The notes under the pieces: model-generated
Told to the model about the DNA's origin: nothing
The model's input: only the letters and a program-made list of their open reading frames with translations
Databases searched by the model: none
Shown: positions 8,857 to 31,100 of the stretch, piece by piece
How positions within the stretch are numbered: the first letter of the stretch is position 1
Layout: every line of letters begins with the position of its first letter
Source: Labilibaculum euxinicum
GTDB taxonomy: Bacteria > Bacteroidota > Bacteroidia > Bacteroidales > Marinifilaceae
DNA length: 64,000 bases
Direction of reading: 5' to 3'
NCBI RefSeq assembly: GCF_009795715.1
Contig: NZ_WTCR01000011.1
Coordinates: 62,001-126,000, forward strand
Translations under genes and position numbers: made by a program

Positions 8857-8887
8857 TTCCTGACCAGCCTTTGGATCAATTAAGTTG

Positions 8888-10689: not shown

Positions 10690-10750
10690 ATTCTATTTAT
10701 TTGGAAAATATGCTCACAATGAATTCATTTAAATTTTACAACTAAAAATA

Positions 10751-12292: not shown

Positions 12293-12323
12293 ATACAAAC
12301 AAATTTGAACTGATATCTTAAAA

Positions 12324-13811: not shown

Positions 13812-13813
13812 CC

Positions 13814-14326: not shown

Positions 14327-14342
14327 TTTTGGCAATTAGTTA

Positions 14343-14381
14343 AATCCCCTGCCGTAAAGGTATGTCCTTTGGCAGGGGATT
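14343..14381. terminator. Hairpin between convergent operons
   Basis: AATCCCCTGCC (14343-14353) pairs perfectly with GGCAGGGGATT (14371-14381), with a second pair AAAGG/CCTTT in the loop. It lies between the end of the carboxylase operon and the end of nrdG and could serve both directions. No clear U-tract is present. Confidence 0.65.
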
Positions 14382-14409
14382 AACCACAAACTAAAAAAAC
14401 TTATATCAA

Positions 14410-15120: not shown

Positions 15121-15149
15121 TGAAATAAATTAAGATGGTGAAAAATCAG

Positions 15150-17303
15150 CTAGCAAACGACCTGTTCTTCTTCCTCAACATGAGCCTTTTTGTCAAATAA
15201 TTTTCTTTCCTTAAATTCCTGTCTTTTGCCGTCATTCCACTGATGTATGGGACGCAGATAACCAACAATCCTCGAGAACACTTCACATTCCGTCCGTTGA
15301 CCGGAATTAGCACATTTCGGACACAATTCATGTTCTCCGTAAATGTATCCGTGTTCGTGGCAAATACTAAATGTAGGTGATAAGGTAATATATGGGAGAT
15401 GATAATTATTGGTTATTTTTTGCAGCAACAACTTTACGGCATCAACAGAAAGCTGTTTTTCTCCAATAAATGTATGAAACACAGTTCCTCCGGTATATTG
15501 CGTCTGCAACTTGTCCTGCAATGTTAAAGCTTCGAATAAATCATCGGTATATGCAACCGGAAGCTGCGAAGAGTTGGTATAATAAGGTGCTGCCCCTTTT
15601 CGGAAGTTTTCCTGATTGGCAACAATTATATCATCGTAAGTTTTGGTATCAAGCTGAGCCAAACGATAGGTTGTTCCTTCGGCCGGAGTCGCTTCCAAAT
15701 TATAGATGTTACCTGTTTCCTCTTGAAAACTAACCAGTTTTTGCTTCATAAAATCAAAAATCCGAAGTGCAAAAGCATTTCCCTCTTCCGAAACCAAATC
15801 ACTTCCAATAAAGTTCAGGCAACACTCATTCATTCCAACAATGCCTATTGTTGAAAAATGATTTTGCCAAAATTTGCCATTCCTGTTTTTCAAATGACGC
15901 AAATAAAATTTTGAATAAGGGAACAATCCTTTTTCCGTTAAATTTTCAATCATTTTTCGTTTGATCTCCAGACTATTTTTCGCCAAATTCATCAGATGCT
16001 CCAACCGCTTAAAAAATTCGGCTTCGTTACTTGCTTCGTAGCCCAAACGAGGTAAATTTACAGTTACCACTCCAACCGAACCGGTTAACGGATTTGCACC
16101 AAACAGACCTCCTCCACGTCGTGCCAGTTCACGTTTATCCAAACGCAGCCTGCAACACATACTTCGCACATCATCAGGCGACAAATCAGAATTTACAAAA
16201 TTAGAAAAGTACGGAATTCCATATTTAGCAGTAATTCTCCAAATGTTTTCATACGCTGGTTTATCCCATTCAAAATCGGATGTGATATTATAAGTTGGTA
16301 TTGGGAAAGAAAAAACACTTCCATTGGCATCTCCTTCTTCAATCACCTGTGCAAAAATTTTATTAAAAAGATCCATCTCAACCTGAAAATCCCCGTAAAC
16401 TTCGTTCATCAATTTGCCGCCAATAATTACCGGCTGATCACTCATAAATTTTGGAACATTTAAATCCATGGTCACATTGGTAAATGGTGTTTGGAAACCT
16501 ACCCGGGTAGGAACATTCATATTATAAAGAAACTCCTGAAGAGCCTGTTTAATCTGATTTTCATCCAATTGATCGTACCTTATGAAAGGAGCCAATAAGG
16601 TATCGAAATTCGAAAATGCCTGGGCTCCGGCGGCTTCTCCCTGCATGGTATAAAAGAAATTGACCACTTGTCCGAGAATGGTACGAAAATGTTTGGCCGG
16701 CCGGCTAACCAATTTGCCCGATGCGCCTTTAAAACCTGTTAATAAAAGATCTTCCAGATCCCACCCTACACAATACACACTTAAGAATCCAAGGTCGTGA
16801 ATGTGAAACGCTCCTTTCTTGTGAGCATCTCCAATTTCCTGCGGGTAAATCTTATTCAGCCAATATTGTGAACTTACAATGGTCGAAATATGTTGATTCA
16901 ATCCCTGCAGAGAATATGACGAATTCGCGCTTTCTTTTATTCTCCAGTCCTGAAGATTCAAATAATCGTCAACCAAGTTTAAATTGGAAAATAATTCCTT
17001 GGTATCGCGAGCCAATTCATGCTGTTTCCGGTATAAAATAAATGCCTTCGCAACTTCAAACAAATCATATCTGAATAATGTTTTCTCTACCAAATCCTGA
17101 ATTTCTTCCACATTGGGAATTCCCGAAAAATCAATCTCTTTCATGATCTGACTGACACAAAATTCGATTAGTTCAACGCGTTCTTCACCTACTGCCTGAA
17201 ATGCTTTATTGATTGCATTTTTAATTTTATCAGGCTTGAATTTAACAACCTGACCGTTTCTTTTCCGAATTTGAGATTCGGATACACTACCATTCATTTT
17301 CAT
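15150..17303 (-). CDS. nrdD: Anaerobic (class III) ribonucleoside-triphosphate reductase
   Basis: 717 residues from the ATG at 17303; another ATG lies at 17297, and the longer frame to 17369 has no signal-like or conserved content. An ATP-cone domain occupies the first 90 residues (IRKRNGQVVKFKPDKIKNAI). The catalytic glycyl-radical domain follows, with MSVx-type FSNFDTLLAPFI and a C-terminal zinc-type cluster CHEHGYIYGEHELCPKC. The glycyl-radical loop is RIVGYLRPIHQWNDGKRQEF. It reduces ribonucleotides without oxygen and without B12. A cobalamin riboswitch lies 120 bases upstream, implying repression when B12 is plentiful and presumably that a B12-dependent class II enzyme is encoded elsewhere. 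Confidence 0.93.
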   Translation of the reverse strand: MKMNGSVSESQIRKRNGQVVKFKPDKIKNAINKAFQAVGEERVELIEFCVSQIMKEIDFSGIPNVEEIQDLVEKTLFRYDLFEVAKAFILYRKQHELARDTKELFSNLNLVDDYLNLQDWRIKESANSSYSLQGLNQHISTIVSSQYWLNKIYPQEIGDAHKKGAFHIHDLGFLSVYCVGWDLEDLLLTGFKGASGKLVSRPAKHFRTILGQVVNFFYTMQGEAAGAQAFSNFDTLLAPFIRYDQLDENQIKQALQEFLYNMNVPTRVGFQTPFTNVTMDLNVPKFMSDQPVIIGGKLMNEVYGDFQVEMDLFNKIFAQVIEEGDANGSVFSFPIPTYNITSDFEWDKPAYENIWRITAKYGIPYFSNFVNSDLSPDDVRSMCCRLRLDKRELARRGGGLFGANPLTGSVGVVTVNLPRLGYEASNEAEFFKRLEHLMNLAKNSLEIKRKMIENLTEKGLFPYSKFYLRHLKNRNGKFWQNHFSTIGIVGMNECCLNFIGSDLVSEEGNAFALRIFDFMKQKLVSFQEETGNIYNLEATPAEGTTYRLAQLDTKTYDDIIVANQENFRKGAAPYYTNSSQLPVAYTDDLFEALTLQDKLQTQYTGGTVFHTFIGEKQLSVDAVKLLLQKITNNYHLPYITLSPTFSICHEHGYIYGEHELCPKCANSGQRTECEVFSRIVGYLRPIHQWNDGKRQEFKERKLFDKKAHVEEEEQVVC

Positions 17304-17423
17304 TTTATTGTTTTTTGATTTTGAAAAAAATGATAGCTTCTGAGGAAAATATAGAATAGGAAGATACATTTAATTGTGTATCCTCATTCTCTGCCTTTCT
17401 CCCGAAAGCTACGAATAATCATT

Positions 17424-17580
17424 ACAGGCAGGTCTTCTGGCTTGTCCTCTTTTGGTTTGCCTTCCCATTTTAGTTGAGATAAAACAGTGGCTTCAGAAAC
17501 CAAAAATATGAGGATTTACAGCTGCGGGGACAGCTCACGAATTAAACGTGATTCCCTATTATTCCTTTCGGAACCTATAA
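17424..17580 (-). promoter_or_regulatory. Cobalamin riboswitch 4, upstream of nrdDG
   Basis: Read on the minus strand: GGTTCCGAAAGG, AATAGGGAATCACG, CCCGCAGCTGTAA, GAAGCCACTG, ATGGGAAGGC and AGCCAGAAGACCTGCC (complement starting at 17427). All conserved blocks of the cobalamin class are present. It ends about 120 bases before the nrdD start codon. Confidence 0.94.
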
Positions 17581-17860
17581 ATCAACACAATAGTAAGAAG
17601 AAAAAATATGATAATCAATCTGAGTTATTAACAGTTATTGGTCAATAAGCTATGAAAGAGGAAGAAACACGGTTCAATTCTTTTTCAGGAAAGAATATCC
17701 TCAATAAAGAAAGCTCAGTAAATTGAATTTATCTACTACTATGCAAGGAAGTATTTGAGAATTCATCTTATAAATGAGATTTAAAGCAAACCAATTTGTA
17801 TCCTACTTTTTGAATTTACCTTAAAGAAAAACTTCAAATACGAATTTGTCTAAGTACAAA
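17581..17860. other. Intergenic region without recognised genes
   Basis: AT-rich sequence separating the nrdD promoter region from the end of the envelope operon. I see no tRNA, repeat or credible ORF. Confidence 0.5.
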
Positions 17861-18415
17861 CTAAGTGAAAAAATACAAAAGTACAGGTATAATAAAACCA
17901 ATCATCATTAACCAAATGCCTCTTTTCTTAAATCCATTTTTCCCTTTCACCATAACAGCTCCGGAAATGGCAAAAAAGATTAATACAATTGCGTAAATAA
18001 TGGCTATTGATGAAAACCTTTTGCCTGAATTGTAGTGAATATCATTCACAAACTTATACACCGGCACCTTTTTATATGTTGTTAGTAAAACCTTACCGTT
18101 ATTAGGGTAATACTCTCCCAACCCACCTTTAATATAGATATTATAAATTCCATTTGCCGGAATTACCTGTGTTAACTTTGGCAAGTCTTTAAAATGGTTT
18201 TGAAAGTATAACTTAAATTCCTTTGGACTTAAATTTGGTTTAGCTTTTTTCTCCAAAACTATTTCCTGATACGAAGGATCTTTCTCATTTTTTTTCAAGA
18301 TTAATAAGACTCCCGACACAGCATAAATCAAGGTTAATCCTATAAATAAATAGCCAAGATCTCTATGCAGAGACCTTATGCTTTTATTCAACTTTTTACT
18401 ATTCCACAATTTCAT
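17861..18415 (-). CDS. Small PepSY-domain membrane protein
   Basis: 184 residues. A first membrane segment (about 20-40, GYLFIGLTLIYAVSGVLLIL) is preceded by RSLHRDLG, an arrangement with a conserved His as in PepSY_TM proteins. A PepSY-like extracytoplasmic portion follows (GKVLLTTYKKVPVYKFVNDIHYNSG, key residues GKV and DIHYN), and two C-terminal segments lie at about 130-180. It overlaps the preceding lipoprotein gene by 17 bases and is the last gene of the eight-gene operon. Small PepSY proteins often pair with metal or heme uptake systems; a redox role here is inference. Confidence 0.75.
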   Translation of the reverse strand: MKLWNSKKLNKSIRSLHRDLGYLFIGLTLIYAVSGVLLILKKNEKDPSYQEIVLEKKAKPNLSPKEFKLYFQNHFKDLPKLTQVIPANGIYNIYIKGGLGEYYPNNGKVLLTTYKKVPVYKFVNDIHYNSGKRFSSIAIIYAIVLIFFAISGAVMVKGKNGFKKRGIWLMMIGFIIPVLLYFFT

Positions 18416-18926
18416 ACGAAGTTCCGTTTACGAAATAAACTAAATAAAAATTTCTATTTGCCTTTTTCATCCATTCGCGCATTTGATTAATATTTATCAT
18501 TTCTGAGGCACAATGTTCTCCCCCTTCTTCGGCATCTTCTTTAGCCTTTACTTTTGCTTCCCAATCGTTAATAAACTTTTCAGATAAACGGTTCTCTTGA
18601 AGCGTTCCTTTAACCGCAATTGTAGAACCTGATAATTCCCGGTTAAAACCCTTAATATCTCCCGTAGCTTCAACTCTTAACGACAGTTTACCTGTTTCAT
18701 CCAGTAATATCACTCTACGACCCGAATGAGCACATACATGTTTTACTATTCCTTCAAAATAAACCTCTTTCCCTACATTCTGCTCTGCTGTTTCCATTAT
18801 CTGAGCAATGGTTTTAGCGGCATGTTCCTTCCCATTTTCTTTTTTTAGTGCCTGTTTTTTATTGATTTGATTACAAGAAACCAATACACTTAAAGCAACA
18901 AATGCTGTAAATATTAACTTTTTCAT
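18399..18926 (-). CDS. OB-fold lipoprotein
   Basis: 175 residues with a lipoprotein signal (LSVLVSC, Cys about residue 18). The remainder has an OB-fold pattern (VGKEVYFEGIVKHVC, IILLDETG, STIAVKGTL) similar to small secreted nucleic-acid-binding-type or DUF4920-like domains. HVCAHSGRR and a late EHCASEM add Cys and His residues that might bind metal or heme, which is speculation. It sits in the envelope operon, overlapping the PepSY gene and 11 bases downstream of the DUF4857 gene. Confidence 0.65.
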   Translation of the reverse strand: MKKLIFTAFVALSVLVSCNQINKKQALKKENGKEHAAKTIAQIMETAEQNVGKEVYFEGIVKHVCAHSGRRVILLDETGKLSLRVEATGDIKGFNRELSGSTIAVKGTLQENRLSEKFINDWEAKVKAKEDAEEGGEHCASEMININQMREWMKKANRNFYLVYFVNGTSYEIVE

Positions 18927-18937
18927 TTCTAAATTGT

Positions 18938-20161
18938 TTAACGATTAAATATAATGTTTGCGATAAAACCATAAATACCTGTAATTGCAATCCAAACCAC
19001 TGAAAACAATTGTATTTTTTGTTTCCGATATCTCGTAATGAAAACAAATACCAATGTCAATAGTAAATTGGTTAGTAATACCCAATAAGATCCAAAATAA
19101 ACCATAGGTTTGATGTATTTGGTATTGGCATTTGTAAATCCAACTGCGAATGGTAAAATAAATTTACTATAAGCAGATTCTGTAATATCCTGCTTAAATG
19201 TTACTTCATCAACCACCTGTTTTGTATCTGCATTAAGAGCTAAAACTGTTTTCCCTTTCGATGATATTACATTGACATTCCAGAACAAAGGATTTGCCAT
19301 AATCAACAATTGATCTTTATTGATATCGAAAGCTGATGTTGGAATTTCCTGTAGTTTGTAAGCTTCAGTTGTGATAATGTAGAGCCTTTTATTTGTATCA
19401 AATACAAAGGCATAAAAGCTTCTGTCGTCTGGTTCCATTGTTGCAATGTATTCCGGAACTACACCTGCAGGTAAAGAAACTTTCCTCAAAAAAGGCATTG
19501 CATTCACCATTTTTAAGTGGAAAATCTGATCGTCATTATCGATAATAAAATAGCCTTCATCGTAGGCTTTTCTGGTTGATGGATTACCCGCTGCCATTTT
19601 AGCAGGAAATCGGAAACCCCTTTTCTCAAAAATCTTATTAAAACATTGACTTTTTTCTTCATTTACCCGATTGGTTTCGGGATTGATAAACTCAATTTTA
19701 GAATTTAAACGAAAAACATCACCAGGCATTTCAATTCTAACTCGTCCCGACATGGACTCAAACAAAGTATAAAGACCAATGTGCGGCTTATTTTTATCAG
19801 TAGGATTTACTTTAAAAAAGAATTTCTTAGAATTCACTTCCCTTGGATTAATAAGCTTGCCATGAATACTTTTTGGCATTCTTCCGTCTGCCATTAATTG
19901 TCTGGAATAAAACATTGGTAGTATACTGTCGAATTCTGATTCAGAATACACTCTATTGGTATTCATGTTTTTGCGAATCAAACGTTCTTCCTTATCATCA
20001 AAATCGATGGTGCAGAAAGCTTTGTCAACAGAACTATAATAAGTAAATATATTTTTTGAAGCTGTATCGGTAACCAGATGATAAGATTTAGGCAACAACC
20101 ATGCTAATAGCAGGGTGCCTAAAATAACTATTAAATAATTTATTGAATATCTATTTTTCAT
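18938..20161 (-). CDS. DUF4857-type membrane protein
   Basis: 407 residues. One N-terminal membrane segment (about 8-22) is followed by a large extracytoplasmic domain rich in beta motifs (DDRSFYAFVFDTNKRLYII) and two C-terminal membrane segments (about 350-372 and 382-402). I believe it belongs to DUF4857, a Bacteroidota family found beside ABC transporters; its function is unknown. It sits directly after the ABC permease, so it may be an extra component of that exporter or importer. Confidence 0.65.
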   Translation of the reverse strand: MKNRYSINYLIVILGTLLLAWLLPKSYHLVTDTASKNIFTYYSSVDKAFCTIDFDDKEERLIRKNMNTNRVYSESEFDSILPMFYSRQLMADGRMPKSIHGKLINPREVNSKKFFFKVNPTDKNKPHIGLYTLFESMSGRVRIEMPGDVFRLNSKIEFINPETNRVNEEKSQCFNKIFEKRGFRFPAKMAAGNPSTRKAYDEGYFIIDNDDQIFHLKMVNAMPFLRKVSLPAGVVPEYIATMEPDDRSFYAFVFDTNKRLYIITTEAYKLQEIPTSAFDINKDQLLIMANPLFWNVNVISSKGKTVLALNADTKQVVDEVTFKQDITESAYSKFILPFAVGFTNANTKYIKPMVYFGSYWVLLTNLLLTLVFVFITRYRKQKIQLFSVVWIAITGIYGFIANIIFNR

Positions 20162-20281
20162 GCGTTTCTATTTTCTCAGTTGCAGCATACTACTCTCATG
20201 AATATTTAATCACTCTCTTGTGTGAATAATTGAATCATTAAATTTCGCATGCTTTTTTTATATCTATTAAAAGCGAACATA

Positions 20282-20953
20282 TTAATCCTGAATTCCAACT
20301 TTAAAACGTTGAACCGAGAAGTAGCCAAACGGTAAGACATAAAATGGAATAATAACAACACTTACCACTACAAAACTGTATGCTCCGGGGAAATCGGTCA
20401 GATAAAACAATTGAAGGCTTGCAAACATGATTAAAGTATTGAAGATCCTTCGTTTCCAACTTGGCTCCAAACAAATCCATGACATCATTGCATAAGCCGC
20501 TAATCCGGCAATATACCATGGCAGTAAAGTATATATCATGCTCGCGGTTATTTCCACAGGAAAATAAATTCCAGAGAATGTCAGAAGTATTAGTAAGTGC
20601 ATCGCAAAAATTATCATCAGCAATGTCATTCCAAATCCTAACATTGTGAAAACAATTTTACGATTGGACAATGGCAGATGTAAACTTAACTTGATTCGCT
20701 TTTGAACCATTTCAGGAACAAACTGTGCTAAAGCCAAACAAAATCCGACCGCAGGAGGAAAGAATTTTAAATCTCGGAATAGAAACTGATCTCTGTTTAC
20801 AATTACATCCCAAAGATGTTCTAAACCTACCATGCGAAACGACCTGCCTAGTTTTAAAAACAGATATGTCAAAAGAATTACTCCGGCAATAAATGCACCT
20901 ATGGCAAACCATTTGGTTTTTTTCCATTCTTTAAATAATAATGCTCTTATCAT
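20282..20953 (-). CDS. ABC-2 type permease subunit
   Basis: 223 residues with about six hydrophobic segments, starting RALLFKEWKKTKWF, a typical ABC-2 N-terminus with a charged segment before the first helix (15-37). It pairs with the ATPase gene, whose stop lies 3 bases upstream. The substrate is not evident. A 120-base gap with no ORF separates it from the DUF4857 gene. Confidence 0.8.
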   Translation of the reverse strand: MIRALLFKEWKKTKWFAIGAFIAGVILLTYLFLKLGRSFRMVGLEHLWDVIVNRDQFLFRDLKFFPPAVGFCLALAQFVPEMVQKRIKLSLHLPLSNRKIVFTMLGFGMTLLMIIFAMHLLILLTFSGIYFPVEITASMIYTLLPWYIAGLAAYAMMSWICLEPSWKRRIFNTLIMFASLQLFYLTDFPGAYSFVVVSVVIIPFYVLPFGYFSVQRFKVGIQD

Positions 20954-20956
20954 CTC

Positions 20957-21844
20957 TTAATATTTTCCGGTTAATCCAATAAATGCCTCTTCTAAACTCA
21001 AACTTTCTTCCTGTATAGAATTGGTTACCTTAACATTACCGCTTAGTAATTTTTCCAATTCATTTTTCGACAGTAATGAATAAAGTTCTGTTTTCCCTTT
21101 AATGCTTACTGAATTATAAATGTGATTGCTATTGTCCAACAACTCAGGCTTTTCGCATGTAAATCTGTATCGTTTAAATGACTCAAGAAGTTCACTAACT
21201 GGCTTTTGCATCACAATACGACCATAATCCATAATCAAACAATCATCAATCAATCGTTCCATGTCCTGAATAATATGAGAGGTGACAAAAACGGTTTTAT
21301 TTTCCGCTTTAGCATATTCACTTAAATAGTCAACAAACAACATGCGGTAACCAGGATCCAAGCCCATCGAAAAATCATCGAGAATTAAAAGCTCTGGATC
21401 TTGTGCCAGAATTAACCCCAAGGCTACTTGCGATCTTTGTCCGCACGACATTCGGGATATTTTCTGTTTGGGATCAATTTTCAGCAGTTTCATTAACTCA
21501 TAGTAAGCATCCTTTCTCCATTTGGGATAAAAGGCAGAATAAAACTTCTCAATCTCCGAAATGTTCATGAAAGAATATTGAACATGCCCTTCAATTAATA
21601 AACCAACTTTTTGTTTGGTTTCTGGTGAAAGGTTTGCCGAGCTTTCGCCAAACATTAAGCATTCTCCGCTTCGTGGTTGTAAATAGCCGTTTAAAATGTT
21701 GATTGTAGTGGTTTTTCCTGTTCCATTTTTTCCTAATAATCCTAAAATTCGTCCTTTCGGGATTTCAAAATTCAAATTCTCATAAATACAGCGTTTGCCG
21801 TAATAGTGAGTTAGGTTTTTGCATTCAACAATAGCTTGTTGCAT
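20957..21844 (-). CDS. ABC transporter ATP-binding protein with unusual catalytic motifs
   Basis: 295 residues. The Walker A motif is GLLGKNGTGKTT (about 35-46). The signature reads MSCGQRSQ where LSGGQ is usual, and Walker B reads LLILDDFSMGLDPG, so the catalytic glutamate after the Walker B Asp is replaced by Asp. The H-loop VTSHI is intact. A C-terminal region of about 80 residues is typical of CcmA-like drug/antibiotic ABC-2 exporters. The gene lies 11 bases after the barrel gene and 3 bases before its permease. Confidence 0.85.
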   Translation of the reverse strand: MQQAIVECKNLTHYYGKRCIYENLNFEIPKGRILGLLGKNGTGKTTTINILNGYLQPRSGECLMFGESSANLSPETKQKVGLLIEGHVQYSFMNISEIEKFYSAFYPKWRKDAYYELMKLLKIDPKQKISRMSCGQRSQVALGLILAQDPELLILDDFSMGLDPGYRMLFVDYLSEYAKAENKTVFVTSHIIQDMERLIDDCLIMDYGRIVMQKPVSELLESFKRYRFTCEKPELLDNSNHIYNSVSIKGKTELYSLLSKNELEKLLSGNVKVTNSIQEESLSLEEAFIGLTGKY

Positions 21845-21855
21845 AAAATATATGT

Positions 21856-23388
21856 TTAAAGTGTTAATCCAATTGCAAAATTGAAACTGTATTGTGATTT
21901 AGAATTTTCTATTATCATGTATTGATAAGCTAGTTTGGTATAAATACCATAAGTATTTTTTGTGTCGAAATCGTATCGAATATTCGAAGCCAAGCTCAGC
22001 CAATCACTTTTTAAATACTCATAGTTTGGAACAATCAAACTTTCATTTGCCTTTCCTTTTGCCAAAGATGAAGTTGTTAAATCACTATTAATGCAGTATT
22101 GGGCTAATGCCTCGAGTTTTATATTCAAGCTAGATTTACTAAACTGAAAGTTTCTTCCTGTATTTAGCCTAAGCGTTACATGTTCTACTTCTTGTTTGGG
22201 ATTTTTAGAATTAGCTATCTTATATTCTGACTCATCAGAAGAGTATTTAATTTCCATTTGATACAAAGAACTGTGCTTAATACCCCTTACCAATAAAATA
22301 CTTGTAAAACCTCCATCTAGATACTTGGCTGAATATTTTTCGATGACACTTAAAAGTTGTCTATTATAATTATAGTTGTAATCAGACCCTGTTTTACTTT
22401 GATAAGATGCGAAAGAATTTATTTTGAATATTTTATTAGTGAACTGATACTGCTTTCCTAAAGTGAATTGAAACTCCTTAGCATCTAAATCATTCACAAT
22501 ATCATAGCCTGTCCCAACTATTTTTAATAATTCCAGTTTCGACTTTTTGTATGAGAATGACTGATACCATCCTGTTTGGCCAATAGGAATCAATTGTGTA
22601 CCCAGTGAATACCCTTTCTTTTCATAAATATTACCAACACCTCCACTATTGGTTACAACCGTTGAGAAATTCTCATCGCTAATACCTAATCCTCTCAGAT
22701 AAAAAACTTTAATCCCTGTACCAGGTCGCAACGCATCTACTTCATGATCTTGCTGATAATCATGATATCCTGCATACAGACCAATCATATATTTTGAATT
22801 GATTTCTCTTGTACCTCCTAATTTTATTTCTAAATCAGAAACGGTAGATTTTGGTCGTGGATCTAATTTTCTGTAATCTTCTGAGGATCTATATTTGGCC
22901 TGAAGGGCATAAGTACTTTTCTTTTGAATCAGACTGTATATTCCTTCGAATGAATAATTTTCGCCGTACGTTTTTCCACCAATAGTATCCGCCACGATAT
23001 ATGGAGCCAATTCACTGTAATCGCTTACTGTATTCCATTTAATATTATCCATATTGTTTTTGCTGTAACTTGCTCTTCCAAACACAAAGTTTTTCTCACG
23101 TCTTTTAAACGAATAAGCATCAAAATCAATTGAGGATGTTTTGTTTCCAGTTTCAATTCTGTACAAGCCATTTGCTTTCCTCTGTTTCCAAGCCAAAGAA
23201 ACATCGGTAAAAGATTTATTGTATTGATGACCTAGCATAGCAGGATTATCCCAAATCCCACTTTGTATTTGAATTAATTCCTTTTCAAAATCAACGGCAT
23301 TCGCATTTCTATCTTGAGCAAATGCTGATGCTGTTAAATTTAAGAGAATGACAATTCCAAGAATGGATTTTAACTTTTGTGTTAGCAT
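21856..23388 (-). CDS. DUF6850-type outer-membrane beta-barrel protein
   Basis: About 510 residues from the ATG at 23388, which opens a good signal peptide (KLKSILGIVILLNLTASAFAQ). The remainder alternates hydrophobic and polar residues and ends FNFAIGLTL, like an outer-membrane barrel. It resembles the DUF6850 family, which accompanies DUF4876 and TonB receptors in Bacteroidota. Function unknown. It sits 69 bases below the DUF4876 gene. Confidence 0.7.
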   Translation of the reverse strand: MLTQKLKSILGIVILLNLTASAFAQDRNANAVDFEKELIQIQSGIWDNPAMLGHQYNKSFTDVSLAWKQRKANGLYRIETGNKTSSIDFDAYSFKRREKNFVFGRASYSKNNMDNIKWNTVSDYSELAPYIVADTIGGKTYGENYSFEGIYSLIQKKSTYALQAKYRSSEDYRKLDPRPKSTVSDLEIKLGGTREINSKYMIGLYAGYHDYQQDHEVDALRPGTGIKVFYLRGLGISDENFSTVVTNSGGVGNIYEKKGYSLGTQLIPIGQTGWYQSFSYKKSKLELLKIVGTGYDIVNDLDAKEFQFTLGKQYQFTNKIFKINSFASYQSKTGSDYNYNYNRQLLSVIEKYSAKYLDGGFTSILLVRGIKHSSLYQMEIKYSSDESEYKIANSKNPKQEVEHVTLRLNTGRNFQFSKSSLNIKLEALAQYCINSDLTTSSLAKGKANESLIVPNYEYLKSDWLSLASNIRYDFDTKNTYGIYTKLAYQYMIIENSKSQYSFNFAIGLTL

Positions 23389-23457
23389 GTAAACAATAAA
23401 ATTAAAGAAGACCCTCAGAGACAAGTCCAACGGATCTTCTTTAAGGTTAATATTGGA

Positions 23458-24690
23458 TTATTCCTCTTCGATTATACCTGGTGTAGGATCAGCAGTAGGA
23501 ATAAAGTCGAATTCTGAGTTGTTGGTATCCAATAAAACAATACGATTACCTTCTTTGTGACTTACCTTACGCTTCACACATTTTCCGTAACGAGCATCAT
23601 CCCCGTCACCAGCATGAGTCCAGGTAAGGTCTAATGATGGATCGAGAGCTTTCCATTCGTAATCAGAAACAGTAGAACATTCTACTGCATCGATAATTAT
23701 ATTATTTGGAACTTTCCAAGCATCAAAATCCATAACTTTCACAAAGTCACCCCATACAAAAGTATATTGATAGTGGTAAGCGTTATCAGTATTAAATTTC
23801 TCTGGTGTCATATCATCCATCTTAAAGATCACATAAGAAGTAAATCCACGATTGTGAAGTCCCCAAACAGAAGCTGAAGTAGAAACCATTTTTTCCATAT
23901 TAGGAACTTCCGGTACGTCTACATCAACATCAGCACCATCGAACCATTCAAAATCTGCAATCGATAAATCAAATGAATTCGCATTCTCAGCAGAGTGATC
24001 AATGGCTACGTCACATACAATAATAGATTTTCCAGGTTCAACAGGATATTCTTTTCCTGATCCGGGAATTCTATAAACTGAACTAACAGGTGTATATTCT
24101 TTTCGTACATCAGGAGTATATTCATTCAATGACTGAGCTGTATTTAGTTCAGATTCCGCAATACATAAACCATCAGCATATAAGATTTTATCCGTATTGT
24201 TATAAATTTCAAAGTATTTATCATCATTATACTGTTTTCCTTCTGGTGTTTTTGTTCCACTGAAGAAGATTTCTGAAATCACAAAACTGGTATTCTTTCT
24301 GTACTCAAATAAGTCGATAGTAAGATCGAAAGATCCTCCTGTAACTTCAACATTCTCGCTAAAGCCTCTAATCCCCGTGGTAGCATAAATTATTTTATCA
24401 TCAACATCTCTAGTAAAATAATCCACTTCGGCTTCTACAGTAAAATTGTAAAGACCATCTTCCAGGTTCAATGTTGGAAGCATGAATCCATATAAATCCT
24501 TGGAAATTTCTTCTCCGGAATTAACATTAGTAACAGTTACCGTACCATTCTTAAATGTTGGTGCCTTTAGTTTTGCAGGTGGATTCAACACCAAATTCAA
24601 ATCTGATTGCAATATTGGATCATCATCATCGCTGCAAGAGAACAAGGATACTACCATTAAAAGGCTTAAACCGAATATCAGTTTTTTCAT
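23458..24690 (-). CDS. DUF4876-type surface lipoprotein with lamin-tail-like domain
   Basis: 410 residues with a lipoprotein signal (LMVVSLFSC, Cys about 19) followed by SDDDDP, an acidic stretch resembling Bacteroidota surface-export signals. A beta domain occupies about 35-130. A segment reading FVISEIFFSG and DKYFEIYNNTDK follows (about 135-165), the hallmark of a lamin-tail-like fold. It probably works with the TonB receptor encoded 13 bases upstream, as SusD-like or XusB-like partners do for theirs, but the ligand is unknown. Confidence 0.75.
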   Translation of the reverse strand: MKKLIFGLSLLMVVSLFSCSDDDDPILQSDLNLVLNPPAKLKAPTFKNGTVTVTNVNSGEEISKDLYGFMLPTLNLEDGLYNFTVEAEVDYFTRDVDDKIIYATTGIRGFSENVEVTGGSFDLTIDLFEYRKNTSFVISEIFFSGTKTPEGKQYNDDKYFEIYNNTDKILYADGLCIAESELNTAQSLNEYTPDVRKEYTPVSSVYRIPGSGKEYPVEPGKSIIVCDVAIDHSAENANSFDLSIADFEWFDGADVDVDVPEVPNMEKMVSTSASVWGLHNRGFTSYVIFKMDDMTPEKFNTDNAYHYQYTFVWGDFVKVMDFDAWKVPNNIIIDAVECSTVSDYEWKALDPSLDLTWTHAGDGDDARYGKCVKRKVSHKEGNRIVLLDTNNSEFDFIPTADPTPGIIEEE

Positions 24691-24703
24691 TTTTTATTAT
24701 TAT

Positions 24704-27478
24704 TTAAAGATTAATATTAAGTTCCATTCCAAAGTATGGAGATACTTTTCGAGTTACTTTAGTGCCATCACTACGCGTATAATCCGGATGATAATCTAAA
24801 ATTCTATTTACATAAAAGGATAGTTCCATCTGATCACCTATGCTCTTTGATACGGTAAGATTCACATCAATACCAATAGGAGTTTTATACAAGTCAAAGT
24901 CATTTGGACTTGGTTTGTGATATAAGAATCGCAATAACGGATCTGTTGTGTGTGATTCATTGTATTCAAACTGATTTCCATCCATATCAAAATAATACTC
25001 AGGCATACCATCATGAGGATTATATCTAAATTGATGATACCACATACACTGTATGGCTGTTGAGAACATTAAACCAAATTTTTCAATATGAGTATCCGCT
25101 CTAAAATTGGTATTGAACTGTTCATATTCTTTCCCTCTGTCCCAGTTGTAATATCCTATGTATGGATAATCCTTTCCATCGATTACTGTACTTGGGTGTT
25201 TGTAAGTTGCATCGCTTAAATCGTATTTAGCTCTCATCCAAGCACCATTAATTGAGACCCTTGAGTGTATGGCATCAATTTGTCCCAAATCAATTTGATA
25301 CTCAACACCTACTTTCTCTTCTCGTGCGCCGTTTGCTCTTTTACTATAGTAGATAAATTCTTTTCTTGATTCATAATCGAATTGTTCTACTGTTGGTGGT
25401 CCACTTAATTCATCGGGATGAGGTCCTGATGATACATCGTATAATTTAAAACCCATTGTTTCGTAATATCCCAATCGCTTAAATCCATTCTTAAGCAATT
25501 CGTGATATGCTGTTACATAAGCTCTGGCCTTTCCCAATTTTAAATTAAATCCAAATTCAAACTTTTCATTTCTATTGGGTTTCAACTGATAATTGATTGG
25601 ATCAATCATTTTGGTTTTATACTGTACTTGTCTTAAATCTTTATTTTGAGAAAAATAATTTAGCTGAACGATATCGAGATAAAGCATATCTGGATATAGG
25701 TGTGTCAGCCCTGGGAATTTGGTATGCATCCCATATCCACCAGTTAACTCAACATATCCACTTCTATTAAATAAATTGAACTTAGGAAAGCGCCATCTCA
25801 TGTTAGCTCTGGGATCGAAATAGAGTTTCCCTGAGAGAGCATAATCCGATGCCATATTCAAGGCCTGTGTTGCTCTTACACCCCCTTGTAGATTTAACCT
25901 GTGATTCGCAATAGGAATACTTAACTTATCTTCCATATAGAATGACAGTCGTTGAATAGAAGGAATATCTTTTGAAACCCTTGATCTGCCATTTCCTGGA
26001 TACAATGGACGGTTTACGTCATACACCTCTCCATCTCCAAAGTTTTTGTTGTATCTCCATTCTGCTCCGATTAGAATGTTTTGCTTTACATTGAAAATAT
26101 CCAATTGGAAATCCGATGAAACATCTGCAAACAAATAAATAGGTTTGCCATCAACCACAAGGTGAGACAAATAGGATGAGGGCAAATACTCACTGTAAAA
26201 TTCTCCTTCCTCTCTATTGGTCATGATGGGTGTATTATTTCCCAGTACCGACTTATCTATGACCTTTTGATTGTGTGTGTAACTACCATTGACTCTAGCC
26301 TCAATTCCTTTAAAGATTGAAGATTTATAAGACTGCCATGAAAGAGTGGTACCTGCACTCACTTTATTGTATTTACTCTTATACTTATCAGTTTCTGGTA
26401 GGTCTATCTCCGGGTCTTTCTTAGTTTCATCAAACGATCCAGTATAATCAATATTTGCATTAAAAGTAAATAAGCCATTTTCGGATTCTGATCTGCTTCC
26501 ATAACGCACTGATCCAGTTATTCTACTGTAATTTACCTTCGGATTTCTGGGATCGGATTTATAATCCAAATAATCAATATCGGCATTCAAGCTTTTACTT
26601 CCTCCCAAATTCACACCTTTTCCTATCGAGAACAATTTAGAACCTGGATCTGCTTTAATTCTTGCAGTCAAGGGCTTTGCTTTATAAGCCCGTGTGATAT
26701 TGACCAAACCACTGGTGAGATCCCCATATTTTACAGAAGGAATTCCTCGAACAATTTCTACAGATTCAATATTATCTGTAGAGATCAATCTCATATCAAT
26801 ACCTTTACCAGTCGTATTTCGTCGCCTTATGTAACGATCTGAACTATAAGATCCGGTTACATTTTGCAATTCTGCATCATTGGAAATTGCCTGTCCGTCA
26901 ATCACAAATGATGTTCCAAAGGATGAATTATAATCATATGAATCATTACTAAAGCTAGAGGCACTACCAGGCTCTCTCAATGAAATCAATTTCATCGTGG
27001 TCATCGAATTCTTTTGGCTTACGCCTCCGGGAAGCAATTCCAAAATATCTGCAAAGCTGGAAGGCTGTAGATGTTTTAAGGCCTCTTTCTTAATGGTGGA
27101 AGATGTTCCGTTCTCTCTCGATTCTTCCGCAATTACAATTACCTCTGATAAATCCTGCGATTCTACACTCATTTGCAATGTGAATGGCTTTCTTTGTGCT
27201 GTAAGTGAAATGGTATCTTGTATTTTTTGGTACCCCAAGCACGAAACCATAATGGTATATTCTCCATTAGGTACATTGTCAATGCTAAACTCTCCATTTA
27301 AATTGGTGGTTGACCATTTTAATGATTCTTTCAGCACAACCGTTGCAAAAGCAATGGGTTTGCCCGATTCTTTTGCCACAAGCCTGCCCTTTACAGCTGG
27401 GTGTGTTTGAGAAATAGCTTGTGAAGGTATAAATGTTATGCCAAGCACAAACAATACAATAAGAGAACTTAATTTCAT
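24704..27478 (-). CDS. TonB-dependent receptor of the envelope operon
   Basis: About 924 residues from the ATG at 27478, which opens a signal peptide ending IPSQAISQ. A carboxypeptidase-regulatory-like domain (about 25-105) precedes the plug (SGLVNI, EIVRGIPSVKYGDLTSGLVN) and a long barrel ending FGMELNINL. It is the first gene of the operon. Its plug carries a long loop with SFSNDSYDYNSSFG-type Ser/Asn/Tyr content. The ligand is unknown; metal or heme is suggested only by the PepSY and OB-fold partners. Confidence 0.9.
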   Translation of the reverse strand: MKLSSLIVLFVLGITFIPSQAISQTHPAVKGRLVAKESGKPIAFATVVLKESLKWSTTNLNGEFSIDNVPNGEYTIMVSCLGYQKIQDTISLTAQRKPFTLQMSVESQDLSEVIVIAEESRENGTSSTIKKEALKHLQPSSFADILELLPGGVSQKNSMTTMKLISLREPGSASSFSNDSYDYNSSFGTSFVIDGQAISNDAELQNVTGSYSSDRYIRRRNTTGKGIDMRLISTDNIESVEIVRGIPSVKYGDLTSGLVNITRAYKAKPLTARIKADPGSKLFSIGKGVNLGGSKSLNADIDYLDYKSDPRNPKVNYSRITGSVRYGSRSESENGLFTFNANIDYTGSFDETKKDPEIDLPETDKYKSKYNKVSAGTTLSWQSYKSSIFKGIEARVNGSYTHNQKVIDKSVLGNNTPIMTNREEGEFYSEYLPSSYLSHLVVDGKPIYLFADVSSDFQLDIFNVKQNILIGAEWRYNKNFGDGEVYDVNRPLYPGNGRSRVSKDIPSIQRLSFYMEDKLSIPIANHRLNLQGGVRATQALNMASDYALSGKLYFDPRANMRWRFPKFNLFNRSGYVELTGGYGMHTKFPGLTHLYPDMLYLDIVQLNYFSQNKDLRQVQYKTKMIDPINYQLKPNRNEKFEFGFNLKLGKARAYVTAYHELLKNGFKRLGYYETMGFKLYDVSSGPHPDELSGPPTVEQFDYESRKEFIYYSKRANGAREEKVGVEYQIDLGQIDAIHSRVSINGAWMRAKYDLSDATYKHPSTVIDGKDYPYIGYYNWDRGKEYEQFNTNFRADTHIEKFGLMFSTAIQCMWYHQFRYNPHDGMPEYYFDMDGNQFEYNESHTTDPLLRFLYHKPSPNDFDLYKTPIGIDVNLTVSKSIGDQMELSFYVNRILDYHPDYTRSDGTKVTRKVSPYFGMELNINL

Positions 27479-27533
27479 GTCAATCCAACATTTTTTGCCA
27501 TTAGTTAGCCCTTTATTCATGGGCTTTCATCTT

Positions 27534-27558
27534 CTTATTAAGATTTACTCTTAATAAG
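27534..27558. promoter_or_regulatory. Perfect palindrome at the envelope operon start
   Basis: CTTATTAAGA, TTTAC, TCTTAATAAG: two perfect 10-base arms with a 5-base centre, positioned where transcription should start from the TACCTTTG element at 27564-27571. It is either an operator for a dimeric repressor or a 5'-end RNA hairpin. Confidence 0.6.
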
Positions 27559-27563
27559 TGGGA

Positions 27564-27594
27564 CAAAGGTATATTGGATTACAAGTCTGCACAA
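27564..27594 (-). promoter_or_regulatory. Promoter of the envelope operon
   Basis: On the minus strand, TTG (27594-27592), 20 bases, then TACCTTTG (27571-27564) matches the Bacteroidota promoter consensus, 86 bases upstream of the receptor start codon. Confidence 0.6.
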
Positions 27595-27715
27595 TCCTCA
27601 TAAATAATGATATTACCTGAGGTTACTCATTGTTTATGATGATTTAATAAAAATCCCAGCGAGAGCTTAATCCAACAGGGACTTTCATATACAACTATAA
27701 AGAAAATAGCATTAA

Positions 27716-28468
27716 TTATTTATTCGGTTCAGCATACACCTCATAATAAGTGTAATCATATCTTTCCACATGACATTTAAGCAACGCTATTCGGGAATTA
27801 GAGGTAATCCACATGTTTGTTGGACTCGCATCATCTTTTTTATAATGAAACAATTCATTGTATTTCTCCATTAAAAGTTCTTCGTCTTCAAGTGTGTAAT
27901 CCGGATCAGAATACAATTCTTTCATAAAATCCAAAAAGATATGCTCATGGATTTCATCTTCATCTCCTATCCCAAAGGTAACAGATGGCACATCATCATG
28001 TTTATCTTGATAGGTAGTAAATCGAAGCATATTTGGGAACATGGTAAAGTAACCTGTTCCATGTCCGATTGAACCTTTAATTTCTGACCAATAATAGCTC
28101 AAAAATTCTCTGTAGTTTGTGACTTCTATGGCAGTAGTATCGCTATAAAATTTATCTTCATCTTTATAGCCTATTAAAAATGTATCAAACTTACCTGGCA
28201 CGAAGAAATTATAAGACCATGAGTATACGGTATGCCCCCATTCAAAAACTTTAGTTTTCCCCTTTGTATCAACATGCCATTCAATAGAGTCATAAGTATC
28301 ATAAAGTTCATTGTAAGAATGTCCCGCATTGGGATTCATTTCAAACTCCATTCGCTCAAAAATATTCTTACGCGTTTGTTTAACTTTCAAAGCAAAATTT
28401 AATTGAGTGGATTCTTTTTTATCAACATTTGGTAAAACATTGTCATGATCATCATCACAAGATACAAT
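27716..28468 (-). pseudogene. Lipoprotein-like protein with damaged N-terminus
   Basis: The frame is open for about 250 codons back to a TAG at 28469-28471. Just after that stop it reads IVSCDDDHDNVLPN, a lipobox-like sequence with the acidic residues typical of Bacteroidota lipoproteins, but no signal-peptide hydrophobic core precedes it in frame. An ATG shortly upstream (MKTKTCGCG, then stop) lies in another frame. This suggests one or more indels or a nonsense change in the signal sequence. The body (YDSIEWHVDTKGKTK, YFTMFPNMLRF) has no family I recognise. If still expressed, it would need an unusual start. Confidence 0.5.
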
Positions 28469-28600
28469 CTACCAAAAGTTTAACCACATCCACAAGTCTT
28501 TGTTTTCATTGTCAAATTAAATATGTCTCTGCACTTGCGATATATTTAAAGTTTCATGTCTTTTAATTGGGTGTTTATCATGAATGTGAATATATGAAAA

Positions 28601-28615
28601 ACGCCCTGAGGGCGT
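28601..28615 (-). terminator. Terminator after the small secreted protein gene
   Basis: ACGCCC, TGA, GGGCGT forms a tight stem followed on the minus strand by a run of U, 10 bases after the stop at 28625. Confidence 0.75.
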
Positions 28616-28624
28616 AATTATATT

Positions 28625-29065
28625 TTATTCATTAACACGTTTCACTGTCATCGAAAATTTTGTTTTCTTTTTAAAACCCATTATTTCAACTTTATCCCTA
28701 GAAATACTAACGATTTCCCAAACTGAACTTATCTTATCAGGTGAATCCCTGTGATTCCTTATCGAGCCGTTAGAACCCTTCACCGTACGAGAGGAAATAA
28801 TAATATACTTACCATCAACTCTCTTACCAATATTATCACAATTGAAAACTGTTGGTACAAAATCACTTAAATAGTAAACTGATTTAATAGCATCAATATC
28901 ATTAATATACGTAAATACACTATCAGATATGAATTTATGACCGTAAGTAATTTCTACACTGTCAACTTGCCATCGATGACCATTCTCAAGTAATTCCTTC
29001 ACGGATTGGCCAAAACTATTTAAACCAACCAATACTAAAATCAATAAAATAAAATGCTTTCTCAT
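28625..29065 (-). CDS. Small secreted protein of unknown function
   Basis: 146 residues from the ATG at 29065. A signal peptide (HFILLILVLVGLNSFGQS) is followed by a mostly beta domain (HRWQVDSVEITYG, KYIIISSRTVKGS, VWEIVSISRDKVEI) suggestive of a lipocalin-like barrel. The start is 9 bases after the cysteine-protease gene stop, so the two are coupled. A terminator follows. I do not recognise a family. Confidence 0.65.
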   Translation of the reverse strand: MRKHFILLILVLVGLNSFGQSVKELLENGHRWQVDSVEITYGHKFISDSVFTYINDIDAIKSVYYLSDFVPTVFNCDNIGKRVDGKYIIISSRTVKGSNGSIRNHRDSPDKISSVWEIVSISRDKVEIMGFKKKTKFSMTVKRVNE

Positions 29066-29074
29066 AATAATCAA

Positions 29075-29650
29075 TTATTTACATCCACTAATTACAAAAT
29101 TATAGTTGTTATTAAAATAACCAGGATGAGCTTCCATCCATTTACCAACTTCAGGATCCATATAAATTAAATAACCATTGTACTTATAACCAACAATAAC
29201 AACATTGTGAAATACATTGGACTGACTGGTTGCCATATCTGTCATAACAACATATCCCTGATCAATTGTGTTAGTAAAACTACCAAAGTTATGCGTATAA
29301 AAATAATGATTCACTAAATCATCCATGTACTGTAACTCAACACCTTGAGTTATATCAACATTACCAGATAATTGCATATAGTAAAAAGCTGCTGCATCTT
29401 GAGTTACTCCTCCATCACATAAATTATCACCTAAATAACCCATAATAGAAACAACACACAAACCCTGTATTTGAGTAGTCATAATCTTAGACATGTTAGT
29501 GTCCGCTAAACTGTCATTAGGTACAGGAGTATACAATTTAGGATTACCTATAGGATCTCCCCCTCCAAGAGGTGTGCCACCAGAGTTAATGTCATAAATA
29601 GCCCCTACAGGACAATATGGTACGCACTCACCACAATTATCACATTTCAT
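29075..29650 (-). CDS. C39-like cysteine protease with N-terminal ferredoxin-type cysteine motif
   Basis: 191 residues. It begins MKCDNCGECVPYCPVGAI: the spacing Cx2Cx2Cx3CP (Cys 3, 6, 9 and 13) is that of a [4Fe-4S] ferredoxin half. A Gly/Pro-rich linker (GGTPLGGGDPIGNP, about 24-37) follows. The rest resembles a papain-like C39 peptidase: QIQGLCVVSIMGYLG with candidate nucleophile Cys near residue 65, HNVVIVGYKYNGYLIY with candidate His near 150, and MDPEVGKW with the Asp. No signal peptide or transporter domain is present. Whether the Cys motif binds a cluster and whether the enzyme is active are inference. The ATG overlaps a 21-codon upstream ORF. Confidence 0.6.
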   Translation of the reverse strand: MKCDNCGECVPYCPVGAIYDINSGGTPLGGGDPIGNPKLYTPVPNDSLADTNMSKIMTTQIQGLCVVSIMGYLGDNLCDGGVTQDAAAFYYMQLSGNVDITQGVELQYMDDLVNHYFYTHNFGSFTNTIDQGYVVMTDMATSQSNVFHNVVIVGYKYNGYLIYMDPEVGKWMEAHPGYFNNNYNFVISGCK

Positions 29651-29712
29651 TTTTTAGGTTCAGTAGGCTTACTTGGATTCCCCTTTTCTCTTACTACAAA
29701 TTTTACTGACAT
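29647..29712 (-). CDS. 21-codon HU-like ORF overlapping the cysteine-protease start
   Basis: ATG at 29712 to TGA at 29647, beginning MSVKFVVREKGNPSKPTEP. The start resembles the first strand and loop of Bacteroidota HU-like DNA-binding proteins, but the rest of that fold is absent. Its stop overlaps the protease ATG as ATGA, after a run of six A. A -1 frameshift on the A run would fuse the two proteins; otherwise it may act as a coupled leader. It may instead be the scar of a recombination. Confidence 0.4.
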   Translation of the reverse strand: MSVKFVVREKGNPSKPTEPKK

Positions 29713-29981
29713 AATAATTAAAATTTTAAATGATTGGAACAGATTCTCTTTTATTTAGACAAATAAAACTAAGTATGAATAAAACATAAGTAAATCATTA
29801 AAAATGATGATATTTAATAGAGATCCTTTTTACCTGTAAAAAATGTTGTTAAATTAACAAAGGTTTGAAATCAGTATTATTTCGCATTTTAGTTTATGTG
29901 AAAATGCCGGAACTGATGATTTCTTTCATGCTAATCATTATTAATGATAACAAATCAATCAGTACTCTAGTTCATAAAAAA
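29713..29981. other. Intergenic region upstream of the protease island
   Basis: AT-rich sequence with a weak GCATTTT/AAAATGC inverted repeat near 29884-29907. I see no gene or RNA here. Confidence 0.4.
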
Positions 29982-30023
29982 AATACTCACTAAAGAATAA
30001 TCGGATTATCTAAAGTGAGTATT
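29976..30023 (-). terminator. Terminator of the flavodoxin operon
   Basis: AATACTCACT (29982-29991) pairs with AGTGAGTATT (30014-30023); the A-run at 29976-29983 becomes a U-tract on the minus strand, 25 bases after the DUF2023 gene. Confidence 0.75.
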
Positions 30024-30047
30024 GAATTAGCAGCAAAAGAAAATCTT

Positions 30048-30443
30048 TTAACCTACTTGTCTGGAGTTTGTAATTGGTGTGACAATCCCTTTTCGTTTCA
30101 TGTATCTTTCATATTGCAGAGTTCTGTCGTAGCCAAGCATAATACCAAGAATAAAATCCTCCTCATCAGAAAAATGAGATAAAGATTTTTCACCAAATGA
30201 CAAAATAATCTGAATACACTCCTCTTTACCAAAAAAAACATTAATCTTATTTTCGTTAACCGTATGCAAAAAATAATTAATCCCCTTTCGAATTAACAAC
30301 TCTTCTGTTTTATCTTTTTCTTTACTATTCATCGTGTGTAAAACGAGGCTTCTTAATCCTTTTTTATACTCGTATACATGATGAAGCAGTATCTGCATGT
30401 CAGCAGTTTTATAATCCAAGCAAGTAATTTTCATTTTCTTCAA
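30048..30443 (-). CDS. DUF2023 family protein, flavodoxin partner
   Basis: 131 residues without signal or membrane segments. The motif LLHHVYEYKKGLRSLVLHTM near the start and FFGKEECIQIILSF with LGIMLGYDRTLQYERYMKR near the end match DUF2023, a small family encoded beside flavodoxin in Bacteroidota. Function unknown. Its start overlaps the flavodoxin stop (30440-30443). Confidence 0.75.
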   Translation of the reverse strand: MKKMKITCLDYKTADMQILLHHVYEYKKGLRSLVLHTMNSKEKDKTEELLIRKGINYFLHTVNENKINVFFGKEECIQIILSFGEKSLSHFSDEEDFILGIMLGYDRTLQYERYMKRKGIVTPITNSRQVG

Positions 30444-30946: not shown

Positions 30947-31100
30947 CTTTTATTTTTATTTATTATTAATATATATTCCCGGAAAACCTCTTGCAATAGC
31001 TATTAATTATGATTTTAACGAAACCCCGAAAACATTATACAAGGCTAATTATCTAACACTTACAATATCGCCATCAACATTTCTTGCTAATAAGTTCTAA

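Follow-up and report, generated by a model that had tools for sequence, protein, structure and literature searches.

Introduction

Several described systems share components with a cluster of eight genes that we have analyzed in a 64,000-nucleotide stretch of the Labilibaculum euxinicum genome (contig NZ_WTCR01000011.1, positions 62,001 to 126,000; hereafter the window). XusABC (BT2063-BT2065 of Bacteroides thetaiotaomicron), which takes up xenosiderophores and is induced by iron starvation (PMC10434189), resembles the cluster in having a TonB receptor, a second outer component, and a PepSY protein. However, XusABC as described there is a three-gene locus with DUF4374 in place of DUF4876, and it lacks the DUF6850 protein, the OB-fold-like lipoprotein, and the module of ATP-binding cassette (ABC) transporter and DUF4857 found in the cluster; DUF4374 was not matched by any of the 10 window proteins scanned against Pfam. 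A second point of comparison is NosR-NosDFYL, a copper-site maturation system. The two would work alike: each pairs an ABC ATPase and its permease with a component in the periplasm and has a lipoprotein that binds metal (in the cluster, a candidate), and some related loci also encode a polyferredoxin of the NosR/NapH type. The cluster differs in having a TonB receptor and an ATPase that is nearer to PmtA and GldA among the 25 of 183 models shown. Neither NosD nor NosL appears among the Pfam and NCBIfam matches listed for the eight cluster proteins. The Fus and YddB-PqqL systems, finally, combine a TonB receptor with an M16 protease, as do some loci related to the cluster, but Pfam detects no protease in the window cluster itself.

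The regulation of related loci has already been published. In Bacteroides thetaiotaomicron, BT3625-BT3633 rises 36.7- to 128-fold in 150 μM dipyridyl and has values of 14.1 to 19.1 in the colitis column of the same 2023 paper, which terms it a putative fimbrillin synthesis/transport locus (PMC10434189). The values given there for growth without iron are 20.8- to 214.5-fold for PG1019-PG1022 of Porphyromonas gingivalis and 326- and 598-fold for BT0516-BT0517 (PMC10434189). A P. gingivalis DUF4876 protein is also found in a hemin study at −5.42, beside HmuY at −6.11 (PMC10470040), which we read as lower levels in excess hemin. The first-pass annotation of the window had held that a published function would speak against its proposal of an uncharacterised system; while regulation has indeed been described, no function was found in the open-licence literature for DUF4876, DUF4857, DUF6850, BT3625-3633, or PG1019-1020.

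Here we argue that the cluster is probably a TonB-dependent iron-acquisition system of three modules. The modular description, a fusion between the permease and DUF4857, a lipoprotein with an HxCxH motif, a polyferredoxin partner, and an operator that relatives share with known iron genes are new to this work.

Results and Discussion

Organization and conservation of the cluster

The cluster consists of eight open reading frames (ORFs), all on the minus strand and running from 27520 to 17861 in a genome of 5.06 Mb. In this order they encode a TonB-dependent receptor with CarboxypepD_reg and Plug domains (24704-27520), a DUF4876 lipoprotein (23458-24690; Pfam, 4e-53), a DUF6850 protein (21856-23430; Pfam, 9e-70), an ABC ATPase (20957-21844; ABC_tran, 8e-22), an ABC-2-like permease (20282-20953), DUF4857 (18938-20161; Pfam, 1.6e-90), an OB-fold-like lipoprotein (18399-18926), and a PepSY_TM inner-membrane protein (17861-18415; PepSY_TM_like_2, 3e-9). 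Neighboring genes are separated by 3 to 27 bases or overlap, except for 120 bases ahead of DUF4857. Upstream of the receptor gene, at 27564-27594 on the same strand, lies TTG-N20-TACCTTTG, the sole minus-strand match to TTG-N18-22-TAnnTTTG within 17300-31400; the whole window holds six such matches on the minus strand and four on the other. TAnnTTTG is the −7 box of Flavobacterium sigma-A (PMC9723704). The first-pass annotation had described eight same-direction genes with mostly short spacing or overlap, a single promoter, and no SusD, and all of this is borne out by the ORFs, the promoter search, and the Pfam scan, in which no cluster protein matched SusD.

The nearest named records to the DUF4857 protein come from a Marinifilaceae bacterium (100 percent) and Labilibaculum manganireducens (96 percent), and we take the Marinifilaceae to be a member of the GTDB order Bacteroidales. 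Linkage was assessed in 295 genomes of the window's order in GTDB, after removal of 14 DUF6850 places below cut-off and two DUF4876 fragments lying in the frame of a listed hit. DUF4857 is present in 35 of these genomes, DUF6850 above its cut-off in 47, DUF4876 in 48, and all three in 33, each pair co-occurring with a hypergeometric p of at most 3.2e-30. Both other families lie within 12 kb at 32 of the 40 DUF4857 places, DUF4876 alone at one, and neither at seven, while DUF4876 is found at most 3 kb from DUF6850 at 58 of 62 DUF6850 places. A wider sample of the phylum contained DUF4857 in 15 of 395 genomes, three of them from the window's order (the window's own included) and 12 sharing only the phylum. 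A scan of genome contigs returned only two loci, which are near-identical. Conserved co-occurrence had been suggested as a check in the first-pass annotation, with unlinked families as the outcome that would overturn it; the families are instead linked in most genomes that hold them.

The composition of the cluster was compared across 50 DUF4857 loci (49 fetched stretches and the window), in which ORFs were labelled by iterative hidden Markov model searches starting from the window proteins. Because contig ends cut some loci, the counts are lower bounds: at least 42 loci have the receptor, 36 DUF4876, 36 DUF6850, 48 the ATPase, 44 the permease, and 49 DUF4857 (its ORF is missing from one locus, L045), and the complete eight-part set occurs in at least 12. 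Conversely, 20 loci chosen for the absence of DUF4857, out of 30 such DUF6850 places, contain the receptor-DUF4876-DUF6850 trio, and none of their ORFs was labelled as permease or DUF4857, so the outer-membrane trio also stands alone. The ABC part of L029, in which both the permease and DUF4857 are doubled (8252-19899), sits beside a SusC/SusD/DUF4843 set and PKD_2 proteins, which means that the ABC/DUF4857 module pairs with a SusCD-type importer as well. The ORF sizes of another locus, L039, resemble those of L029. The gene linkage is thus real, but what is conserved is a cluster built of separable modules and not the fixed eight-gene unit first proposed.

An operator shared with known iron genes in relatives

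A palindromic expectation-maximisation search upstream of the receptor genes found ATACC-N8-GGTAT. With a width of 21 it scored 70.5 versus 48 to 55 in four shuffles, and with a width of 15 it scored 41.9 versus 32 to 39 only, the real set having had twice the starting seeds of the shuffles. A search for exact 6-base dyads across the 49 receptor upstream regions gave no repeated motif. The exact half-sites TACC-N8-GGTA occur in seven of these 49 regions compared to a shuffle mean of 0.15, and spacings of 4-7, 9, and 10 occur in none. A first matrix, which matched 17 of the 49, was dropped because it included cluster sites and was circular for them. The matrix used in its place was built from 12 sites outside the cluster loci, hand-picked from the 28 exact sites seen, and at threshold 12 it matches 14 of the 49 receptor upstream regions, with 0.5 expected. 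Over all loci it gives 39 matches, 15 inside genes and 24 between them, and at 21 of the latter the start of a receptor, OB-lipoprotein, or ATPase gene lies within 350 bases.

The reverse comparison used a matrix from 14 cluster sites, taken from the cluster hits of the non-cluster matrix and from earlier ones, with a threshold of 10 and an expectation of 0.02 per upstream region. It matches six of 10 fldA upstream regions (0.2 expected; binomial p about 1e-8), these being the loci in which the gene was recognised by pattern among 21 DUF2023 loci, the other 11 having been left out. It also matches seven of 18 usable feoAB upstream regions, from 19 fetched of 20 listed FeoB places (0.4 expected; p about 4e-8). 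Both p values are only rough: the feoAB match in L145 had already been seen as an exact site under the name L108, and L151 and L153 carry the same site in one genus. Exact sites precede a FeoAB gene in L108, where FeoB was identified by profile, and, for genes named by eye, a flavodoxin-DUF2023 pair (L110), hemerythrin-response regulator pairs (L074 and L106), an M75/porin pair (L105), a PepSY gene (L101), and receptors; the remaining ones fall within coding regions or close to genes without an obvious connection to iron. Three of the seven exact sites in one genome (G238) are at its three DUF4876 loci, and in another (G513) the reversed control exceeds the exact pattern, 5 versus 4.

No prior description of the palindrome was found in open-licence papers, although these do not prove absence. 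The Fur protein of P. gingivalis, PgFur, does not bind the Escherichia coli Fur box (PMC6613475). Taken together, the operator tests and the published induction lend good support to the view that relatives of the cluster belong to an iron regulon, and the window's own copy may be under iron control as well. The window has a single exact site, ATACCAACATTTAGGTAT at 51811-51828, which is one of seven in the genome and lies elsewhere, between a Crp/Fnr-like gene (51844-52590) and the gene of a small MsrQ/YedZ-like membrane protein (51035-51697), both named by eye.

A likely link between the published iron response and the cluster is suggested by gene order. From BT3633 to BT3625 the annotations read receptor, DUF4876, DUF4876/hypothetical, fimbrillin, PepSY, PepSY, ATPase, hypothetical, and DUF4857 (PMC10434189), and the related locus L008 reads receptor, DUF4876, DUF6850, a 621-residue protein, OB lipoprotein, PepSY, ATPase, permease, and DUF4857. 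For five of the nine genes the annotated family is the same in both loci (receptor, DUF4876, PepSY, ATPase, and DUF4857); BT3631, BT3630, BT3629, and BT3626 correspond in position only. BT3625-BT3633 thus has the same order as L008 and is most likely the same kind of locus as the cluster, from which it differs in having PepSY before the ATPase and an additional gene annotated as fimbrillin. Close to the cluster, about 2.5 kb upstream and outside it, the window has a flavodoxin and DUF2023 pair on the minus strand (30048-30946; flavodoxin 30440-30946, DUF2023 30048-30443), a type of pair known from iron starvation, as in the strongly induced BT0516-BT0517.

Outer-membrane components

Import across the outer membrane is well supported. 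The receptor has a Plug domain (Pfam, 2.8e-8) and classes as a TonB receptor with plug. Its single sequence gave no match at 0.01 in the PDB. A profile of 12 chosen relatives (all PDB profiles in this work were built from 7 to 14 hand-picked members) matched 22 sequences over the N-terminal and plug region, with 9gbc as the best (4.6e-18), followed by ferric enterobactin, colicin I, and BtuB receptors; none of the 22 is named FusA or YddB.

The lipobox of the DUF4876 protein reads SCSDDDD, and at least two acidic residues just after the lipobox cysteine are present in 41 of 59 DUF4876 relatives with a lipobox-like site versus none of 22 OB lipoproteins. According to the surface-export rule, acidic residues after the lipidated cysteine mark lipoproteins that face outwards. 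The DUF4876 lipoprotein is therefore probably located on the cell surface, whereas the OB-fold-like lipoprotein is predicted to face the periplasm. A profile search found a solved relative of DUF4876, 4q1z (1.5e-100). As judged by eye, the DUF6850 protein is a probable outer-membrane barrel, and its true start is likely the ATG near 23388, which gives it a signal peptide.

The ABC/DUF4857 module

The NCBIfam models nearest to the ATPase are PmtA and GldA, with the curated cut-offs missed for all 25 of 183 models shown, and the nearest solved proteins are ABCA-type transporters. The window permease has no Pfam match, its profile gave nothing in the PDB, and its ABC-2 label is based on its position, about six hydrophobic segments counted by eye, and the fact that some relatives have it fused to DUF4857. 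A permease lies directly upstream of 45 of 51 DUF4857 ORFs and is itself preceded by the ATPase in 43. In three loci (L050, L051, and L052) a single polypeptide comprises the permease (roughly residues 6-235) and DUF4857 (roughly 232-668). Because of this fusion, DUF4857 is part of the ABC transporter and not, as in the first-pass annotation, an item separate from it. The protein has an N-terminal membrane anchor, a domain of about 270 residues (39-309), and C-terminal membrane segments, a topology assigned by eye; its alignment contains no conserved cysteine or histidine, and its profile gave a single chance-level match in the PDB (E 0.95).

Candidate metal-binding and redox partners

The OB-fold-like lipoprotein of the window has no Pfam match, hence none to DUF4920, and its profile found nothing in the PDB. 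The label comes from relatives: among 14 scanned of the 27 labelled, three match DUF4920 (best 1.8e-12) and three match tRNA_anti-like. In an alignment of 28 sequences, of which the window, L002, and L003 are near-identical, the motif H63-x-C65-x-H67 retains C65 in all 28, H63 in 24, and H67 in 23, and a few members have a DUF4920-like CxxxGCW in place of HxCxH.

In the PepSY protein, H17 and H127 are kept in all 22 aligned sequences, and we consider it a candidate haem-bearing ferric reductase. FsrB of Bradyrhizobium is, we assume, a protein of the same PepSY kind. It reduces ferric siderophores ahead of FeoAB (PMC10760861), and FoxB, a PepSY_TM relative, reduces ferrioxamine, that is, ferric siderophore iron (PMC12914433).

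A third candidate partner emerged from the clustering of neighboring ORFs, which covered 71 loci. A family of polyferredoxins of about 640-660 residues with NapH/NosR-like iron-sulphur motifs is found in 12 of these; the three members tested (L041, L043, and L070; for example, L041:604-2574) have a NapH/NosR-like Fer4_5. By eye, the family also has HMA-like repeats that carry KC[YF]GS where CxxC would be expected. The gene immediately precedes the ATPase gene in three loci (L036, L046, and L049). Within the 50 DUF4857 loci, 29 have an OB lipoprotein or PepSY, nine a polyferredoxin, and three both. The polyferredoxin could be a new electron donor for metal reduction in the periplasm.

Proposed mechanism

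Iron is the most likely class of ligand. We propose that the DUF4876 surface lipoprotein would capture an iron-bearing ligand, which the TonB receptor together with the DUF6850 protein would carry into the periplasm. There, the PepSY_TM protein may pass electrons via its haem to reduce the iron of the ligand, with the released iron being received by the HxCxH lipoprotein; in some other genomes, the NapH/NosR-like polyferredoxin standing near the ABC genes could belong to this redox module. At the inner membrane, the ATPase, the permease, and the periplasm-facing DUF4857 would work on the ligand, and their most likely task is to expel or remodel it once emptied. Fe(II) would then enter through FeoB, whose gene lies elsewhere; the window's genome encodes FeoB, as do 19 of the 20 relatives that were tested. 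The first-pass annotation had envisaged a machine dedicated to one ligand, perhaps a metal or haem complex, and the direction of that proposal agrees with the linkage, the response of related loci to iron starvation, and the operator that these loci share with feoAB and fldA.

There are several points that weigh against this model. Which way transport runs and what the ligand is are inferred, and the parts assigned to the PepSY protein as reductase, the lipoprotein as iron chaperone, and the ABC complex are drawn from families and motifs. The supposed partners are not universal: the OB lipoprotein is found in 25 and PepSY in 20 of the 50 DUF4857 loci, and 15, some of them cut by contig ends, have neither these nor the polyferredoxin. 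The operator is likewise absent, at the thresholds used, from 35 of 49 receptor and 11 of 18 feoAB upstream regions; in the window, the best palindrome at the cluster promoter scores 2.9 (rank 23 in the window) and the fldA upstream region 6.2, below the threshold of 10. Across the seven genomes counted there are 58 exact matches versus 31 to the reversed control, such that many single matches are due to chance. Structure prediction from single window sequences failed for both the OB lipoprotein and DUF4857, with mean predicted local distance difference test (pLDDT) scores of 45 and 43. Finally, the likeness of BT3625-BT3633 to the cluster is one of annotation and gene order, and dipyridyl, which was used for the published iron starvation, is not perfectly iron-specific.

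A more speculative variant, to which we assign a rather low probability, is that the ATPase, permease, and DUF4857 form a new class of mechanochemical machine that strips iron from the ligand in the periplasm, the ATP-driven motion reaching the ligand through DUF4857, the electrons coming from PepSY or the HMA-polyferredoxin, and the HxCxH lipoprotein taking the iron. In the same reading, ATACC-N8-GGTAT would be the iron-responsive operator of this order of Bacteroidota.

Alternative explanations

Protein-borne iron is a serious rival because peptidases recur in sister loci, although we regard it as unlikely overall. A protein or peptide carrying iron would be imported in a Fus-like act of piracy and cut by peptidases, and the ABC transporter would remove the peptides. 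Pectobacterium takes in ferredoxin in this manner, through TonB receptors with M16 proteases (PMC6793856). M16 peptidases, of which two members were profile-tested, account for 10 ORFs in nine of the 71 clustered loci, six of them DUF4857 loci, and related loci also encode a Dpp7-like peptidase of family S46, a met-zincin, HEAT proteins with a weak match to C25, and a member of the papain family in which one stretch resembles HmuY. These numbers are minima since many neighbors carry no label. The best NCBIfam model for the ATPase, below its cut-off, is the peptide exporter PmtA. However, Pfam recognised no peptidase in the window cluster, and peptidases are common in these genomes, so their presence in related loci may be due to chance. 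The haem-centered alternative appears somewhat less probable still, namely an importer parallel to Hmu in which the ABC/DUF4857 module and the OB lipoprotein act like CcmABE. The combination of an OB fold with ABC-2 recalls CcmE with CcmAB, the P. gingivalis DUF4876 protein is in the hemin response, and a protein adjacent to one trio locus (L060) contains an HmuY-like stretch below its cut-off, but Pfam matched no chelatase or haemophore family in the cluster, and in B. thetaiotaomicron hmu is already present and co-induced (PMC10434189).

As regards the metal, the main rival has the cluster importing copper, or some other metal, in the way of the CrtA/PepSY_TM systems, with HxCxH binding Cu(I). 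The motif and its CxxxGCW variant both suit the chemistry of Cu(I), and HMA-like repeats are seen by eye in the polyferredoxin. Copper import is known for TonB receptors encoded next to PepSY_TM proteins (PMC12914433). Related loci are nevertheless induced by dipyridyl, appear in a hemin response, and share their operator with feoAB and fldA, all of which makes copper improbable to our minds. A role in fimbrillin synthesis or transport, as suggested in 2023 for BT3625-BT3633, where BT3630 is annotated as fimbrillin family (PMC10434189), is highly improbable. The position of BT3630 is occupied in seven related loci by a family of 580-813-residue proteins in which no fimbrillin match was seen; the L008 member reaches DUF6383 and an SBBP propeller model with scores under their cut-offs, the L010 member has no match in NCBIfam, and the profile of the family gave nothing convincing in the PDB. 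The window cluster lacks this companion gene altogether. The fimbrillin locus was accordingly rejected, as were a SusCD importer and siderophore export.

If the cluster is indeed a modular iron system, its dedicated ABC/DUF4857 complex, candidate metal-binding lipoprotein, and varying redox partners make it directly testable. Iron starvation strongly induces a locus of like make-up in a common gut commensal, and its expression is also raised in a colitis data set, yet it has been filed as putatively fimbrial. Knowledge of iron regulation in these bacteria remains scarce according to the 2023 paper (PMC10434189), and the palindrome may offer a handle on it.

Neighboring genes

Some genes near the cluster and its relatives are unusual. 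At 29075-29709 the window has a 191-residue ORF with a ferredoxin-like start (CxxCxxCxxxCP) and a remainder that recalls papain/C39 proteins; it overlaps the stop of a 21-codon fragment resembling the N-terminus of HU-like DNA-binding proteins. The papain-family protein of L060 (4859-6436; 9.5e-5), whose HmuY-like stretch scores 1.4e-4, lies beside a receptor-DUF4876-DUF6850 locus. Proteins of about 730 residues (15 ORFs) occur near or after the trio in 10 of the loci L053-L067, and the three tested match HEAT, one with a weak C25 match. A HEAT protein is also listed beside DUF4876 and a receptor in BT1933-BT1939 (PMC10434189).

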